Shown piece after piece: positions 9,198-19,483 of a stretch of 64,000 nt of DNA. This DNA is from Gemmatimonadaceae bacterium (GTDB taxonomy: Bacteria > Latescibacterota > UBA2968 > UBA8231). Numbering within the stretch: position 1 is the stretch's first letter; the number at the start of each line of letters is the position of its first letter. The translations under genes and the position numbers were made by a program. The DNA is taken from positions 1-64,000 of the forward strand of contig JAPOZM010000007.1 of NCBI GenBank assembly GCA_026706075.1. The letters are read 5' to 3'. A model generated the notes under the pieces. That model was not told the origin of the DNA. It searched no databases and saw only the letters and a list, made by a program, of their open reading frames with translations.

Positions 9198-10361
9198 TCA
9201 GAGTCCGCAGGACTTGCGGAACAGCTCTTCCATGTCGGACATGGTCGTCTTGCGCGGGTTCACCCGCACGTTGCCGCTGCGCATGGCGGCCTCCGCCAAG
9301 CCTTCGATGTCCGGGTCCTCGACGCCGGCGTCGCACAGGTGCCCGGGGATGCCCAGGTCCTCGTTGAGGCGGCGCACCGCCTCCACCGCCAGGCAGGCGG
9401 CATCGTAGTCGCCGTGGCCGTCGGTCTCCTCCCCGAGGGCGGCGGCGACGGCGGCGAACTCGGGGACCCGGGCCTGCAGGTTGTACTCCATCACGTGGGG
9501 CAGGATCACGGCGTTGGCCAGGCCGTGGTGAACGCCGTGCCGGGCGCCGACCGGATGGGACATGGCGTGCACGTTGCCGAGCCGCGTCTGCGAGAAGGCC
9601 ACGCCCGCCAGGCAGCTGGCGATGAGCATGTTCCCGGTCGCCTCCAGCTCGTGGTCGTTGGCGCAGGCCCGGCGCAGGTTGCCGCCGATCAGCTCGATGG
9701 CGCCCAGGGCGAGGCCCTCGGTGAAGGGGGTGGAGAGCAGGTTGGTGTACGACTCGAGGGCGTGGGTGAGGGCGTCCATGCCCGTGGGGCCGCCCACCGA
9801 GGCCGGCAGGGCCACGGCCAGCTCCGGGTCGAGGACGGCCGCCCGGGGCGCGAGCCGCCAGCTGATGACGGGTTCCTTGTTGCGGGTGCGGGGGTGGGTG
9901 AGCACGGCGAAGGGGGTCACCTCGCTGCCGGTGCCGTAGGTGGTGGGCACGCAGACCAGGGGCGGCAGCTCGCGGGTGACCTTGTCCTGGTAGCCGATGT
10001 AGCTGCCGATGCGGCCTCCGTGGCTGACGATGACGCCGATCATCTTGGCCACGTCCATGGGGGAGCCGCCGCCGACGCCGAGGATGGCTCCGCAGCCGGC
10101 GCGCTCGTAGAGCCGGGCGCCGGAGGAGACGTTGCGGGCCACGGGATTGGCGGTGACGTCGGTGAACAGGGCCCACGCGACGCCGGCGTCGTCGAGGGTG
10201 GAGGTGACGCGCTCGACCACGCCGGCCTGCTCCAGGCCGCGGTCGGAGACGACGAGGACCTTCTCGCCCTCGGGCAGCAACTCGGGCAAGCGGGCGACCG
10301 AGCCGGCCCCGTGGACGACGCGGGTCGGAGAGCGGAAGTCGAAACTGTTGGGAAAGGCCAT
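9198..10361 (-). CDS. Iron-containing alcohol dehydrogenase (group III)
   Basis: 387 residues from the ATG at 10361. Motifs: GGGSPMDVAK for NAD(P) binding, TTYGTGSEVT, metal ligands in GMDALTHALES and AMSHPVGARHGVHHG. Enzymes of this family interconvert small alcohols and aldehydes (lactaldehyde, 1,3-propanediol, methanol, 4-hydroxybutyrate). It is the first gene of the minus-strand run; a 159-bp divergent region separates it from the + gene at 10521, where the promoter must lie. The 1474-residue track ORF extending upstream is a shadow. Confidence 0.9.
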   Translation of the reverse strand: MAFPNSFDFRSPTRVVHGAGSVARLPELLPEGEKVLVVSDRGLEQAGVVERVTSTLDDAGVAWALFTDVTANPVARNVSSGARLYERAGCGAILGVGGGSPMDVAKMIGVIVSHGGRIGSYIGYQDKVTRELPPLVCVPTTYGTGSEVTPFAVLTHPRTRNKEPVISWRLAPRAAVLDPELAVALPASVGGPTGMDALTHALESYTNLLSTPFTEGLALGAIELIGGNLRRACANDHELEATGNMLIASCLAGVAFSQTRLGNVHAMSHPVGARHGVHHGLANAVILPHVMEYNLQARVPEFAAVAAALGEETDGHGDYDAACLAVEAVRRLNEDLGIPGHLCDAGVEDPDIEGLAEAAMRSGNVRVNPRKTTMSDMEELFRKSCGL

Positions 10362-10520: not shown

Positions 10521-12128
10521 GTGATCCGCTCCCTCCGCAATCGCCGCGTGCTCCTGTGCCTGCTGGCGTCGCTGGCGGTGCACATGCTCTTCCTGTGGGC
10601 CTACCAGCGTTGGGCGGCCGAAAGCGTGCTGCGGGTGCTGCGCCCGGCGCGCTTCGAGCTGGCCCCGTCGCTGGAGCCGCAACGCTTCGAGCCGGCGCCG
10701 CGCGCCACGGTGCCCGATGTCGTGATGGAGCAGCTCCGCCTGGCCGAGCTGATGATGGAGGCGCCCCTGCCCGAGGACGCGGTGGCGGTGCCATCGCCGG
10801 GCCTGGAGGGCCTGGCGCCGGAGCCGGGGCTGGAGGCCGACCCGGGGCTGGGACCCGCCCTTCTGCCGGGGGACACCCTGTCCTACGACAGTGCCCTCAC
10901 CGACCTCTACCGGCGCAAGCTCGTGGAGCTGCACGGGCGCCGCGTCCGGGTGCTGCCCCTGGCCGACACCACCTCCGAGGCCGGCCGCAGGCGCACCCGG
11001 GCCCGCCGGATCATCGACCGCGCCATCGAGGCCATGGGCGGGCTCGAGCGGCTGCAGGCGATCCGGGACAAGAGGATCCGCGTCGAGCGGTGGAACCACC
11101 AGCGCCAGATCTGGGAGCCCGGCGTTGTGCGCTCGTACCTGCGCGGCCGGCGCTACCGCGTCGACATCGGTCCCGCCGAGGCGCGCGGGTACGACGGCAT
11201 GCAGAGCTGGTACCTGCGGTACGGACTCCTCCTGCCCCCCGGGGACGAGAGGCACAACGCCGAGCGCTGGGACTTCCTGACGCGGTTCCGCGGCGACGGC
11301 GTGATCGTGGAGTACGTGGGCCGGCGGGAGATGCGGTTCCGGACCTTGGAGGCGGTACGCGTCATCGACACGAAGTTCGGCCGCCAGCGCCTCGCCTACT
11401 TCGACCCGGGCGACAGCCTGCTTCACACCGAGGTGGAGCGTGGCCGCACGACCACCTACAGGCAGTACCGGGAGACCGGAGGCGTGCTGACGCCCTTCGA
11501 GGTCCTGATCGGGCGACTCTCCTCGCCGCGAGTCACTCGCTACCGCTGGCACACGGAGTTGAACGCTGGCCTGACGGCGGACCTCTTCGAGGTGCCGCAG
11601 CCCGTCTCCTGGGAGCCGGAGGCGGTGCGAATGGTCATCTTCGAGCACGCCCCCGTGCCGCCGGGGGGTCCCGCCGCGCTGAGCCTTCGGTTGGAGGAAC
11701 TGGACCCGGGGGTCGATCTCGAGGGCCGGGCATGGCTCGACCCCCTCGCAACCAACTTGCTCCGGACCTACATGAAGAGGAAGCTGGAGGCGGCCGGCGT
11801 CCTGGCCGAGGCCGAACCCGACTGGCGGCTGAGTTTCCGGGTGGAGGGGTTCTGGGTGGTTTCCGGGCTGGATGGGGGCCCGCCGGTGGCCACGATCGTG
11901 ATCGCCGTGCGACTGCAGAGCCTGACTGGCGAGGGCCTGTGGGAAGGGGAGGTGAAGGACCGCTGGAGGGTCCGCGGCGCTGCCATCGACGACCAGGCGG
12001 CCGATCACCTGACCTTCGAGGGGATCTCGCGGGCCTCGGCGGGTCTGAAGGCGCTCCTCGACGCCCGCACCGCCGTCGCTCAGCCGGCGTCGACTCCGAG
12101 CGCCGGCAGCAGCTCCGGCAGCGAGTAG
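10521..12128 (+). CDS. Inner-membrane-anchored protein with TonB-like N-terminus and LolA-like domain
   Basis: 535 residues from a GTG start without a convincing ribosome-binding site. Residues ~9-27 form one transmembrane helix with SLAVH (S17, H21), the SxxxH pattern and position found in TonB energy transducers. Residues ~38-120 are Pro/Glu/Leu-rich, like a periplasmic linker. Residues ~170-390 begin RIIDRAIEAMGGLERLQAI, as in LolA/outer-membrane lipoprotein-sorting-like domains. The last ~140 residues resemble ABC-transport auxiliary lipoproteins only weakly. No TonB C-terminal domain was seen. The tail overlaps the convergent HAD gene by 49 bp. Confidence 0.6.
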   Translation: MIRSLRNRRVLLCLLASLAVHMLFLWAYQRWAAESVLRVLRPARFELAPSLEPQRFEPAPRATVPDVVMEQLRLAELMMEAPLPEDAVAVPSPGLEGLAPEPGLEADPGLGPALLPGDTLSYDSALTDLYRRKLVELHGRRVRVLPLADTTSEAGRRRTRARRIIDRAIEAMGGLERLQAIRDKRIRVERWNHQRQIWEPGVVRSYLRGRRYRVDIGPAEARGYDGMQSWYLRYGLLLPPGDERHNAERWDFLTRFRGDGVIVEYVGRREMRFRTLEAVRVIDTKFGRQRLAYFDPGDSLLHTEVERGRTTTYRQYRETGGVLTPFEVLIGRLSSPRVTRYRWHTELNAGLTADLFEVPQPVSWEPEAVRMVIFEHAPVPPGGPAALSLRLEELDPGVDLEGRAWLDPLATNLLRTYMKRKLEAAGVLAEAEPDWRLSFRVEGFWVVSGLDGGPPVATIVIAVRLQSLTGEGLWEGEVKDRWRVRGAAIDDQAADHLTFEGISRASAGLKALLDARTAVAQPASTPSAGSSSGSE

Positions 12129-17209: not shown

Positions 17210-19483
17210 CTACAGCGTCCCCGACAGCGCCACCGTGACCCGGCGCATGGGGCGTATCTCGCGCTCCGACAGGATGTAGTGGTAGCGCAGCAGGTTGTCG
17301 ACTCGGAGGATCAGCGTCGCCGGCCCGATACGGCGCTCGACGAAGGCGTCCACCAGGTAGACGGGCAGGTGGTCCCGCCCGCACTCCGCGAACAGTCCTG
17401 ACACCCTTTCGAAGCGGCTCGTGTAGCGGAAGGTCACTCCGCCGCGACCGTGGCCCCTCGCCATTCCCAGGCTGGTCGTGACGGCGTGGCGGGACCGGTA
17501 CGGCAGGGGCGCGGTCTGTCCGGGGCCCAGGTCGTCGTGGCAGTACGGCGGAAGGGGCACCCCCTCGGCGAGGTACTCCTCGGCGTCGACGTAGGTGTAG
17601 GACGCCTTCCAGAGCGCCCCGAGGGGCAGCGCCAGTTGCTGCTCCAGCTCGAGGCCGCGGATGCGGGCCCTGGAGATGTTGCGGAAGCTGGCCCTGGGGA
17701 CGACCGTGGAGGTCGGATCGGGCCGGGCCTCGATCAGCCCTTCGAACTCGTTCCAGAACAGGGCGGCGTCGACGGCGAGCGCCCCTCCGAGGACCCGCCG
17801 GATCCCCGCCTCGTACGACCAGCTGCTCTCCGAGGCGAGATCAGGGTTCGGACAGACCAGGATTCCCGAAGCGTCGGCCTGGACGTGGATCTCGGTAACC
17901 GAGGGAGCCCTGAAGCCGCGGCCGGCCGAGAGCCGGATGGCGCCCGGGGCCGCCTTCCACGACAGCCCGACCTGGGGGCTGAGCTGGGCCTCCGTGTGCG
18001 CCGCGATGCCGTGGTCTCCCGCCGCCGGTCCGCACGGCCCGCCGGCCGGCGCGGCCTCTCCGGCGCCGCGGCGGTGCAGGTCGGCGCGCAGGCCGAGGGC
18101 GAGCTCCAGGTCGCGGAAGGCCGACACGTTCTGGGCGTAGAGCGCCGTGTTGAGCACGGTGCGCTGGCCGAGGAAGTCCGCCGGGGACCGCGCCAGGTCG
18201 TAGATCCCGGTGGCGCCCACGATGAGCCCGCGGCTGCCGAGGCGCTCCCCGAGGTCGAGCTGCGCCTCGGTGCCGATCTTGTGTCCCGCCGAGGCCAGGC
18301 CTCCGGCGGCGCGGGTGTTGTCGAAGTCGGTGCGGAAGTAGAACCCGCGCCAGGTCAGGTTCGTCCCCGGGTTCACGAGGTGGGTCACCTGGGTGTTGAG
18401 ATTGAGCTTCCACGAGACCGTGGCCGCACCGCGGTCGCCCACCGGCACAAGCAGCGGCGTGGCGCGGTCCTTCCACTGCAGGAAGACCCCGTGGTCGTCG
18501 TGGGCCCAGCTGGCCAGGCCGGTCCAGCGGGTGTGCCGGCCGAGCCGGCGGGTCCCCTTGGCGAAGAGGTTGTAGCGGGTCGCCTCGTTGTTCTCGCGGT
18601 ACCCCGTCCGGCGCTTGTGTCCCGCGGAGACGAGGTAGCCGCCGGCGGAGGTCGTGCGGGAGTGGCTCACATCGACGCCGCCGAGGTACATGAGGTCCCG
18701 CCACTCCCAGGACGGGTGCGCCGGCTGGTCGTAGAGGCCGCTCACGAGGCGGAAGCGGGTCTCGGGAAGCTCCGACGGCGCGCGGGTGATGACGTTGATG
18801 ACGCCGCCGAGGGCCCCGGTCCCGTAGAGGGCCGAGCCCGCCCCCTTGATCAGCTCGACCCGCTCCACCTCGGTGACGGGGATGATGTCCCACTTGATGT
18901 CGGCCTGGTCGGCCGAGAGGGCGGGGACGCCGTCGAAGAGCAGGAGCACGCGGCTGCCCGTGCCGCGGCTGTACCCGCTGGAGCCGCGGATGCTGACCTG
19001 ACTGCCCACCTGGCTGACGCCGGGCAGATGGCGCAGGGGCCCCGAAAGGCTGAAGGAGTTGAAGCCGGTCAGCTCCCGCCGGTCGGTCACCGACATGCTG
19101 ATCGGGGCTTCGGAGAACAGCTGCGGCCTCCGGGTCGCCGTGACCACGACCCCGGGCAGCTCGACCGCGGACTCTTGGAGGACGAGGACGCCGAGATCGA
19201 GAGACTCCCCCTCGCCGACCTCGACGGGAACCGTGCGGGTGCCATAGCCGAGGAAGGAGACGACGAGCAGCTCCGCACCCGGCTCCACCGCGAATCGGAA
19301 GCGGCCTCCCTTCCCGGCAAGGACCCCCTGTCCGCTCTTCTTCAGGTAGACACTCGCTCCGGCGAGGGCGGTGCTGTCGACGGCCGCGGCGATCCGGCCG
19401 CTGATCCCGGCGCCGGTTGCCGGGGCCGCGGACGCGAGCAGGCCGCCTGCCAACAGCGCCAGGAGAAGCACACGGGCCGCCAT
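17210..19483 (-). CDS. TonB-dependent outer-membrane receptor
   Basis: 757 residues from the ATG at 19483 (the 982-residue track ORF adds an unrelated upstream frame). Signal peptide ~1-24 (LLLALLAGGLLASAAPATGA). A carboxypeptidase-regulatory-like domain covers ~25-105 (GRIAAAVDSTALAGASVYL). The plug, ~110-230, has VVVTATR and the VSIRGSSG/VLLLFDGVP and GSALYGTGALGGVINVIT motifs. A 22-strand-type barrel then runs to the end. The order and Cys-poor barrel resemble cobalamin/iron-chelate receptors (BtuB-like), but cargo is not deducible. It is coupled by TGATG to the upstream lipoprotein, whose gene precedes it on the same strand. Confidence 0.85.
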   Translation of the reverse strand: MAARVLLLALLAGGLLASAAPATGAGISGRIAAAVDSTALAGASVYLKKSGQGVLAGKGGRFRFAVEPGAELLVVSFLGYGTRTVPVEVGEGESLDLGVLVLQESAVELPGVVVTATRRPQLFSEAPISMSVTDRRELTGFNSFSLSGPLRHLPGVSQVGSQVSIRGSSGYSRGTGSRVLLLFDGVPALSADQADIKWDIIPVTEVERVELIKGAGSALYGTGALGGVINVITRAPSELPETRFRLVSGLYDQPAHPSWEWRDLMYLGGVDVSHSRTTSAGGYLVSAGHKRRTGYRENNEATRYNLFAKGTRRLGRHTRWTGLASWAHDDHGVFLQWKDRATPLLVPVGDRGAATVSWKLNLNTQVTHLVNPGTNLTWRGFYFRTDFDNTRAAGGLASAGHKIGTEAQLDLGERLGSRGLIVGATGIYDLARSPADFLGQRTVLNTALYAQNVSAFRDLELALGLRADLHRRGAGEAAPAGGPCGPAAGDHGIAAHTEAQLSPQVGLSWKAAPGAIRLSAGRGFRAPSVTEIHVQADASGILVCPNPDLASESSWSYEAGIRRVLGGALAVDAALFWNEFEGLIEARPDPTSTVVPRASFRNISRARIRGLELEQQLALPLGALWKASYTYVDAEEYLAEGVPLPPYCHDDLGPGQTAPLPYRSRHAVTTSLGMARGHGRGGVTFRYTSRFERVSGLFAECGRDHLPVYLVDAFVERRIGPATLILRVDNLLRYHYILSEREIRPMRRVTVALSGTL

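Follow-up and report, generated by a model that had tools for sequence, protein, structure and literature searches.

A candidate TonB/TolA-type force transducer with a LolA-like and PqiC/LptE-like head in place of the TonB C-terminus

How energy is supplied to outer-membrane lipid transport is an open question, and it is one that the protein family described here touches. Tol-Pal has been repeatedly linked to phospholipid trafficking, and we know of no lipid-binding transducer that would serve it. Within the window (the whole stretch of DNA analysed here, 64,000 nucleotides from an uncultured bacterium) lies a gene whose product joins a TonB-like membrane anchor to a head of another kind, and this raises the question of what such a chimera would be built to pull. 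Here we consider its anchor, the relatives of its head, the motors and genes that accompany its family, and the readings that these allow.

Anchor, linker and layout of the protein

The gene stands alone. Its neighbours on both sides lie on the opposite strand, with called ends at 10361 and 12080, the latter giving a convergent overlap of 49 bases, and its own stop codon ends at 12128. The orthologue listed in Table 1 shows 48% identity along its length and begins at an equivalent position. About 5 kb away, a gene at 17210-19483 resembles by eye a TonB-dependent receptor.

Table 1. Features of the SxxxH-LolA gene and its product, in window coordinates
Feature	Position	Strand	Evidence
Whole gene, 535 aa, GTG start at 10521, subfamily A of the SxxxH-LolA family	10521..12128	+	orthologue L038:7986-9569
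N-terminal transmembrane helix, residues 10-28, after RSLRNRR, N-in	10548..10604	+	sequence; best 19-residue hydropathy 2.18
Ser17 of SxxxH	10569..10571	+	invariant, 21/21 homologues
His21 of SxxxH	10581..10583	+	invariant, 21/21 homologues
Pro-rich linker, residues 41-148	10641..10964	+	composition; low conservation in family alignment
LolA-superfamily-like domain, residues 155-366, with AxxAMGG helix	10983..11618	+	family HMM A3 to free-standing LolA-like proteins to canonical LolA (hhalign)
C-terminal domain, residues 380-522, predicted PqiC/LptE-like fold	11658..12086	+	AF2 model; Foldseek, best PDB match 2iqi (DUF330)

The S17xxxH21 motif sits within a 19-residue hydrophobic segment, at a spacing equal to that of TonB S16/H20. 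When 21 homologues with intact N-termini, representing two deeply split subfamilies, are aligned, Ser17 and His21 are the sole invariant residues among the first 41 positions. The initial annotation had proposed a TonB-like SxxxH anchor at this spot and had staked the proposal on both residues being conserved in orthologues, as they prove to be in every sequence of the alignment. It also described a Pro/Glu-rich linker after the helix; the 108 residues do include 16 Pro and 11 Glu, but 19 Leu and 13 Ala as well, and their number agrees with the roughly 100 residues of domain II in TonB/TolA. The sequences themselves establish a conserved anchor, linker and order of domains. The full SHLS motif, with a Leu seven residues after the His and a Ser four further on, is not kept, since these positions are Y28 and A32 and neither is conserved in the family. 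In structures of TonB-ExbBD and TolA-TolQR, the Ser and His of the anchor form the docking hub on TM1 of ExbB/TolQ, and the TonB Leu of SHLS makes no contact with ExbB (PMC12905483). Coupling of the window protein to a motor of this kind is well supported by the pattern of conservation.

Beyond the linker the resemblance to TonB ends. By Pfam the window protein has no TonB_C or TolA C-terminal domain, the TonB_C matches of its own genome mapping elsewhere, and no vWA head; inspection of the sequence reveals no lipobox. Searches of Pfam, NCBIfam and PDB sequences with the window protein matched no curated family and no solved structure.

Relatives of the head domains and spread of the family

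The domain at about residues 155-366 opens with the helix ARRIIDRAIEAMGG. In direct hhalign comparisons, the family did not rise above reversed controls against either canonical LolA of the same clade or LolA_like. The first link to LolA came from a composed probe, a consensus of free-standing LolA-like proteins and not a natural sequence, which matched family members at full length (best E 1.2e-5) and also matched real plasmid-borne free-standing LolA-like proteins. The family HMM, which does not depend on the letters of the probe, gave E 8e-6 to 7e-4 for natural free-standing proteins from Cupriavidus, Paraburkholderia, Acidisarcina and Hymenobacter; in a background of 324 proteins nothing unrelated scored above them, and these free-standing proteins match canonical LolA with 96% probability and E 2e-9 (hhalign). 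Through this chain, membership of domain 155-366 in the LolA superfamily is supported transitively. The initial annotation's view of the periplasmic part as LolA-like rather than a TonB C-terminus therefore stands by way of the intermediates and agrees with the lack of a TonB_C match, but it missed the third domain at about residues 380-522. A canonical LolA was found in 28 of the 30 genomes searched, including the window's own (G000:C32), so the window protein is not the housekeeping LolA. One of the free-standing relatives, on a Hymenobacter plasmid (L156:532-1236), is immediately followed by a gene for a TonB-dependent receptor.

For the third domain, an AF2 model of residues 376-522 built from an input of three sequences (pLDDT 69.6, pTM 0.63) found 2iqi (DUF330) as its best PDB match in Foldseek (E 3.3e-6, TM 0.64/0.55), with further matches to a Caulobacter lipoprotein, PelC, CsgG, several LptE structures and E. 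coli PqiC (8q2d). The model supports a PqiC/LptE/DUF330 fold, which lipoproteins adopt in systems for envelope lipids, LPS and export. AF2 of the whole head (residues 127-535), in which a cavity was sought, gave a low-confidence model with pLDDT 39.5.

Homologues occur in 16 genomes, all inside the window's own GTDB family, of which 25 genomes were searched; none was found in the approximately 39 other genomes of the phylum that were searched, viral contigs yielded no relatives, and plasmid records no direct match. A maximum-likelihood tree splits the family into subfamilies A and B at 100/100 support. Subfamily A carries the C-terminal domain, except for L014, which has a different C-terminal extension; members of subfamily B, at about 420-450 aa, are missing the third domain; and the window's own genome encodes one of each. 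The orthologue in genome G005 (L039:7920-9317, on the same contig as L010) contains in-frame stops, either as a pseudogene or through assembly error, and intact copies exist in other genomes.

Motors, linked genes and competing readings

To what extent does SxxxH mark transducers in this clade? Genes were called around 43 ExbB/TolQ homologues of the family's genomes, "near" meaning no more than three genes away from the motor gene. SxxxH within an N-terminal hydrophobic segment was found in 7/135 near genes versus 0/154 others (Fisher p 0.004), and in 0/83 non-family genes from unrelated neighbourhoods, for a pooled contrast of 7/135 against 0/237. All seven proteins are encoded in motor operons, three in the TonB position (L235, L260, L277), two in the TolA position within TolQ-TolR operons (L249, L274), and also L251 and L267. 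This confinement to motor operons argues that SxxxH marks transducers here, although not universally, since the TonB_C protein in the ExbBDD operon of the window's own genome lacks the His. The L267 protein, from the window protein's genus, is encoded directly upstream of ExbB-ExbD and bears what appears by eye to be a DUF4159-like head on its SxxxH anchor, which indicates that heads are swapped in this clade. A further candidate signature, an S-x-x-S-W/Y motif in ExbB TM1 exclusive to partners of SxxxH transducers, was rejected because the transducers at L235, L260 and L277 adjoin ExbB proteins without it.

Motors are plentiful in these genomes, with seven ExbB homologues in the window's own and 3-9 in each of the family's 25. 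Two loci of the window's genome, L159:6938-8477 (C71) and L162:6508-8048 (C10), encode ExbB and then two unlike ExbDs with no adjoining transducer gene; the first ExbD carries Asn where the proton-binding Asp would be (PVVNVALVLLI), the second has the Asp, and on C10 the motor is followed by a gene with a TamB domain. At L267:2104-3204 and L272:5914-7014 the motor is a 366-aa ExbB-ExbD fusion in which Asn occupies the Asp position of the ExbD portion; the L267 fusion comes after the SxxxH protein with the DUF4159-like head and is itself followed by a separate Asp-bearing ExbD.

The same anchor evidence would serve equally well for a transducer that is coupled to a motor and uses its LolA-like and PqiC-like domains as protein-binding heads, pulling an outer-membrane or secreted partner and not carrying lipid. 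A genetically linked secreted protein lends this reading some substance. In genus g7, subfamily-B genes alternate, frequently in duplicated pairs, with a gene encoding a secreted protein of some 350 aa, and all 12 full-length copies of this partner in the family (12/12) lie in g7 beside a short SxxxH-LolA gene; a partner-family gene also follows the divergent homologue L014, from a different genus (E 1e-9). In L053, L054 and L055, tandem units of partner gene and short SxxxH-LolA gene lie beside a mandelate-racemase-like gene. No partner was found for the window's own gene, however, and the head is built entirely from folds that in other proteins deal with lipids, lipoproteins or envelope export, which leads us to consider protein-binding heads unlikely, if still a serious alternative. 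The C-terminal domain of the partner resembles the third domain of the window protein in a way that is suggestive only, and we do not claim homology (best pairwise hhalign E 0.0024-0.005 versus 0.2-0.55 for reversed controls); were the two the same, subfamily A would be a fusion of two linked functions. Large secreted proteins with discoidin/FlgD tails, encoded beside several homologues, were considered as working partners of the family and rejected: g7 genomes G018, G020 and G024 each hold 130-156 matches to such secreted proteins with FTPNGDGVND/FlgD-like tails, a very large paralogous family, so that adjacency is expected by chance.

In the neighbourhoods examined, no ExbB, ExbD, TolQ or TolR gene lies beside any homologue, and this, together with the incomplete SHLS motif, speaks for a motorless protein, whether an inner-membrane lipid chaperone or an envelope sensor using the LolA fold as RseB does, with the Ser and His kept for a purpose such as dimerisation. 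We judge such a protein improbable, because it is exactly the Ser and the His that are invariant at TonB/TolA spacing over very divergent sequences, because SxxxH is specific to motor transducers in this clade, and because the Pro-rich linker is of periplasm-spanning length. A reading in which the helix is cleaved off as a signal peptide, leaving a soluble LolA-like protein that is secreted, takes up the outcome that the initial annotation had set against its own reading. It fits the N-terminal position after basic residues but is very hard to credit, given a polar His within the 19-residue core, the exact retention of Ser and His across two divergent subfamilies, which a signal peptide would not be expected to show, no evident signal-peptidase site after the helix, and a following Pro (P42) kept in 20/21 homologues.

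A proposed mechanism and its relation to known systems

The explanation that we prefer, and to which we give roughly even chances, is a force transducer of the TonB/TolA type whose usual head has been exchanged for a LolA-like and PqiC/LptE-like one, most likely serving a lipid, glycolipid or lipoprotein. From the conservation of the anchor, and by analogy with the solved complexes, we infer that the helix would use Ser17 and His21 to dock on the outside of an ExbB/TolQ pentamer. The Pro-rich linker would span the periplasm, allowing the head to reach the outer membrane, and the head would act at or near that membrane while being pulled or swung by the motor. The cargo, whose lipidic nature is suggested by fold only, would be loaded, extracted or moved by motor-driven pulling. 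Proton-motive-force-coupled handling of lipids or lipoproteins, at which the initial annotation hinted, is something that we still infer, as no ExbB/ExbD gene adjoins and the head model stands at pLDDT 39.5. It is possible, if somewhat short of probable, that the family represents a further class of force transducer, in which a tethered LolA/PqiC-LptE head is pulled by ExbBD/TolQR and moves lipids or lipoproteins between membranes, all within one polypeptide.

Each part of this architecture has a known counterpart from which it also departs. With TonB and TolA the window protein shares the short basic N-terminus, the single N-in SxxxH helix, the Pro-rich periplasm-spanning linker and a globular head, while it lacks TonB_C or TolA domain III as well as the Leu and final Ser of SHLS, and is encoded outside a motor operon. 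Its relation to the LolA superfamily is one of sequence, by way of the free-standing LolA-like proteins, but it is membrane-anchored and has no Pfam LolA match. Similarly, its third domain has the predicted beta-alpha-beta-beta-beta-alpha fold of PqiC, LptE and DUF330; unlike those lipoproteins, it has no lipobox, forms part of an inner-membrane-anchored protein and matches no sequence family.

The nearest published parallel is the vWA-headed SHLS class of force transducers, in which an SHLS anchor and a linker of about 100 residues carry a non-TonB head, with the genes located beside motor genes (PMC12204202). The window family has the same plan of anchor, linker and non-TonB head, and differs in that its head is LolA-like and PqiC/LptE-like and no motor genes adjoin it. 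Our literature search found no description of a LolA-headed transducer. Taken with the TonB_C, DUF4159-like and vWA heads, the LolA/PqiC head supports a view of the SxxxH anchor as a general plug for varied heads. In plan, the window family would be the vWA class with another head; if motor-driven lipid handling proves true, it would be much more than a variant. A TonB/TolA-type anchor fused to heads of the lipid-transport type would make such handling directly testable.
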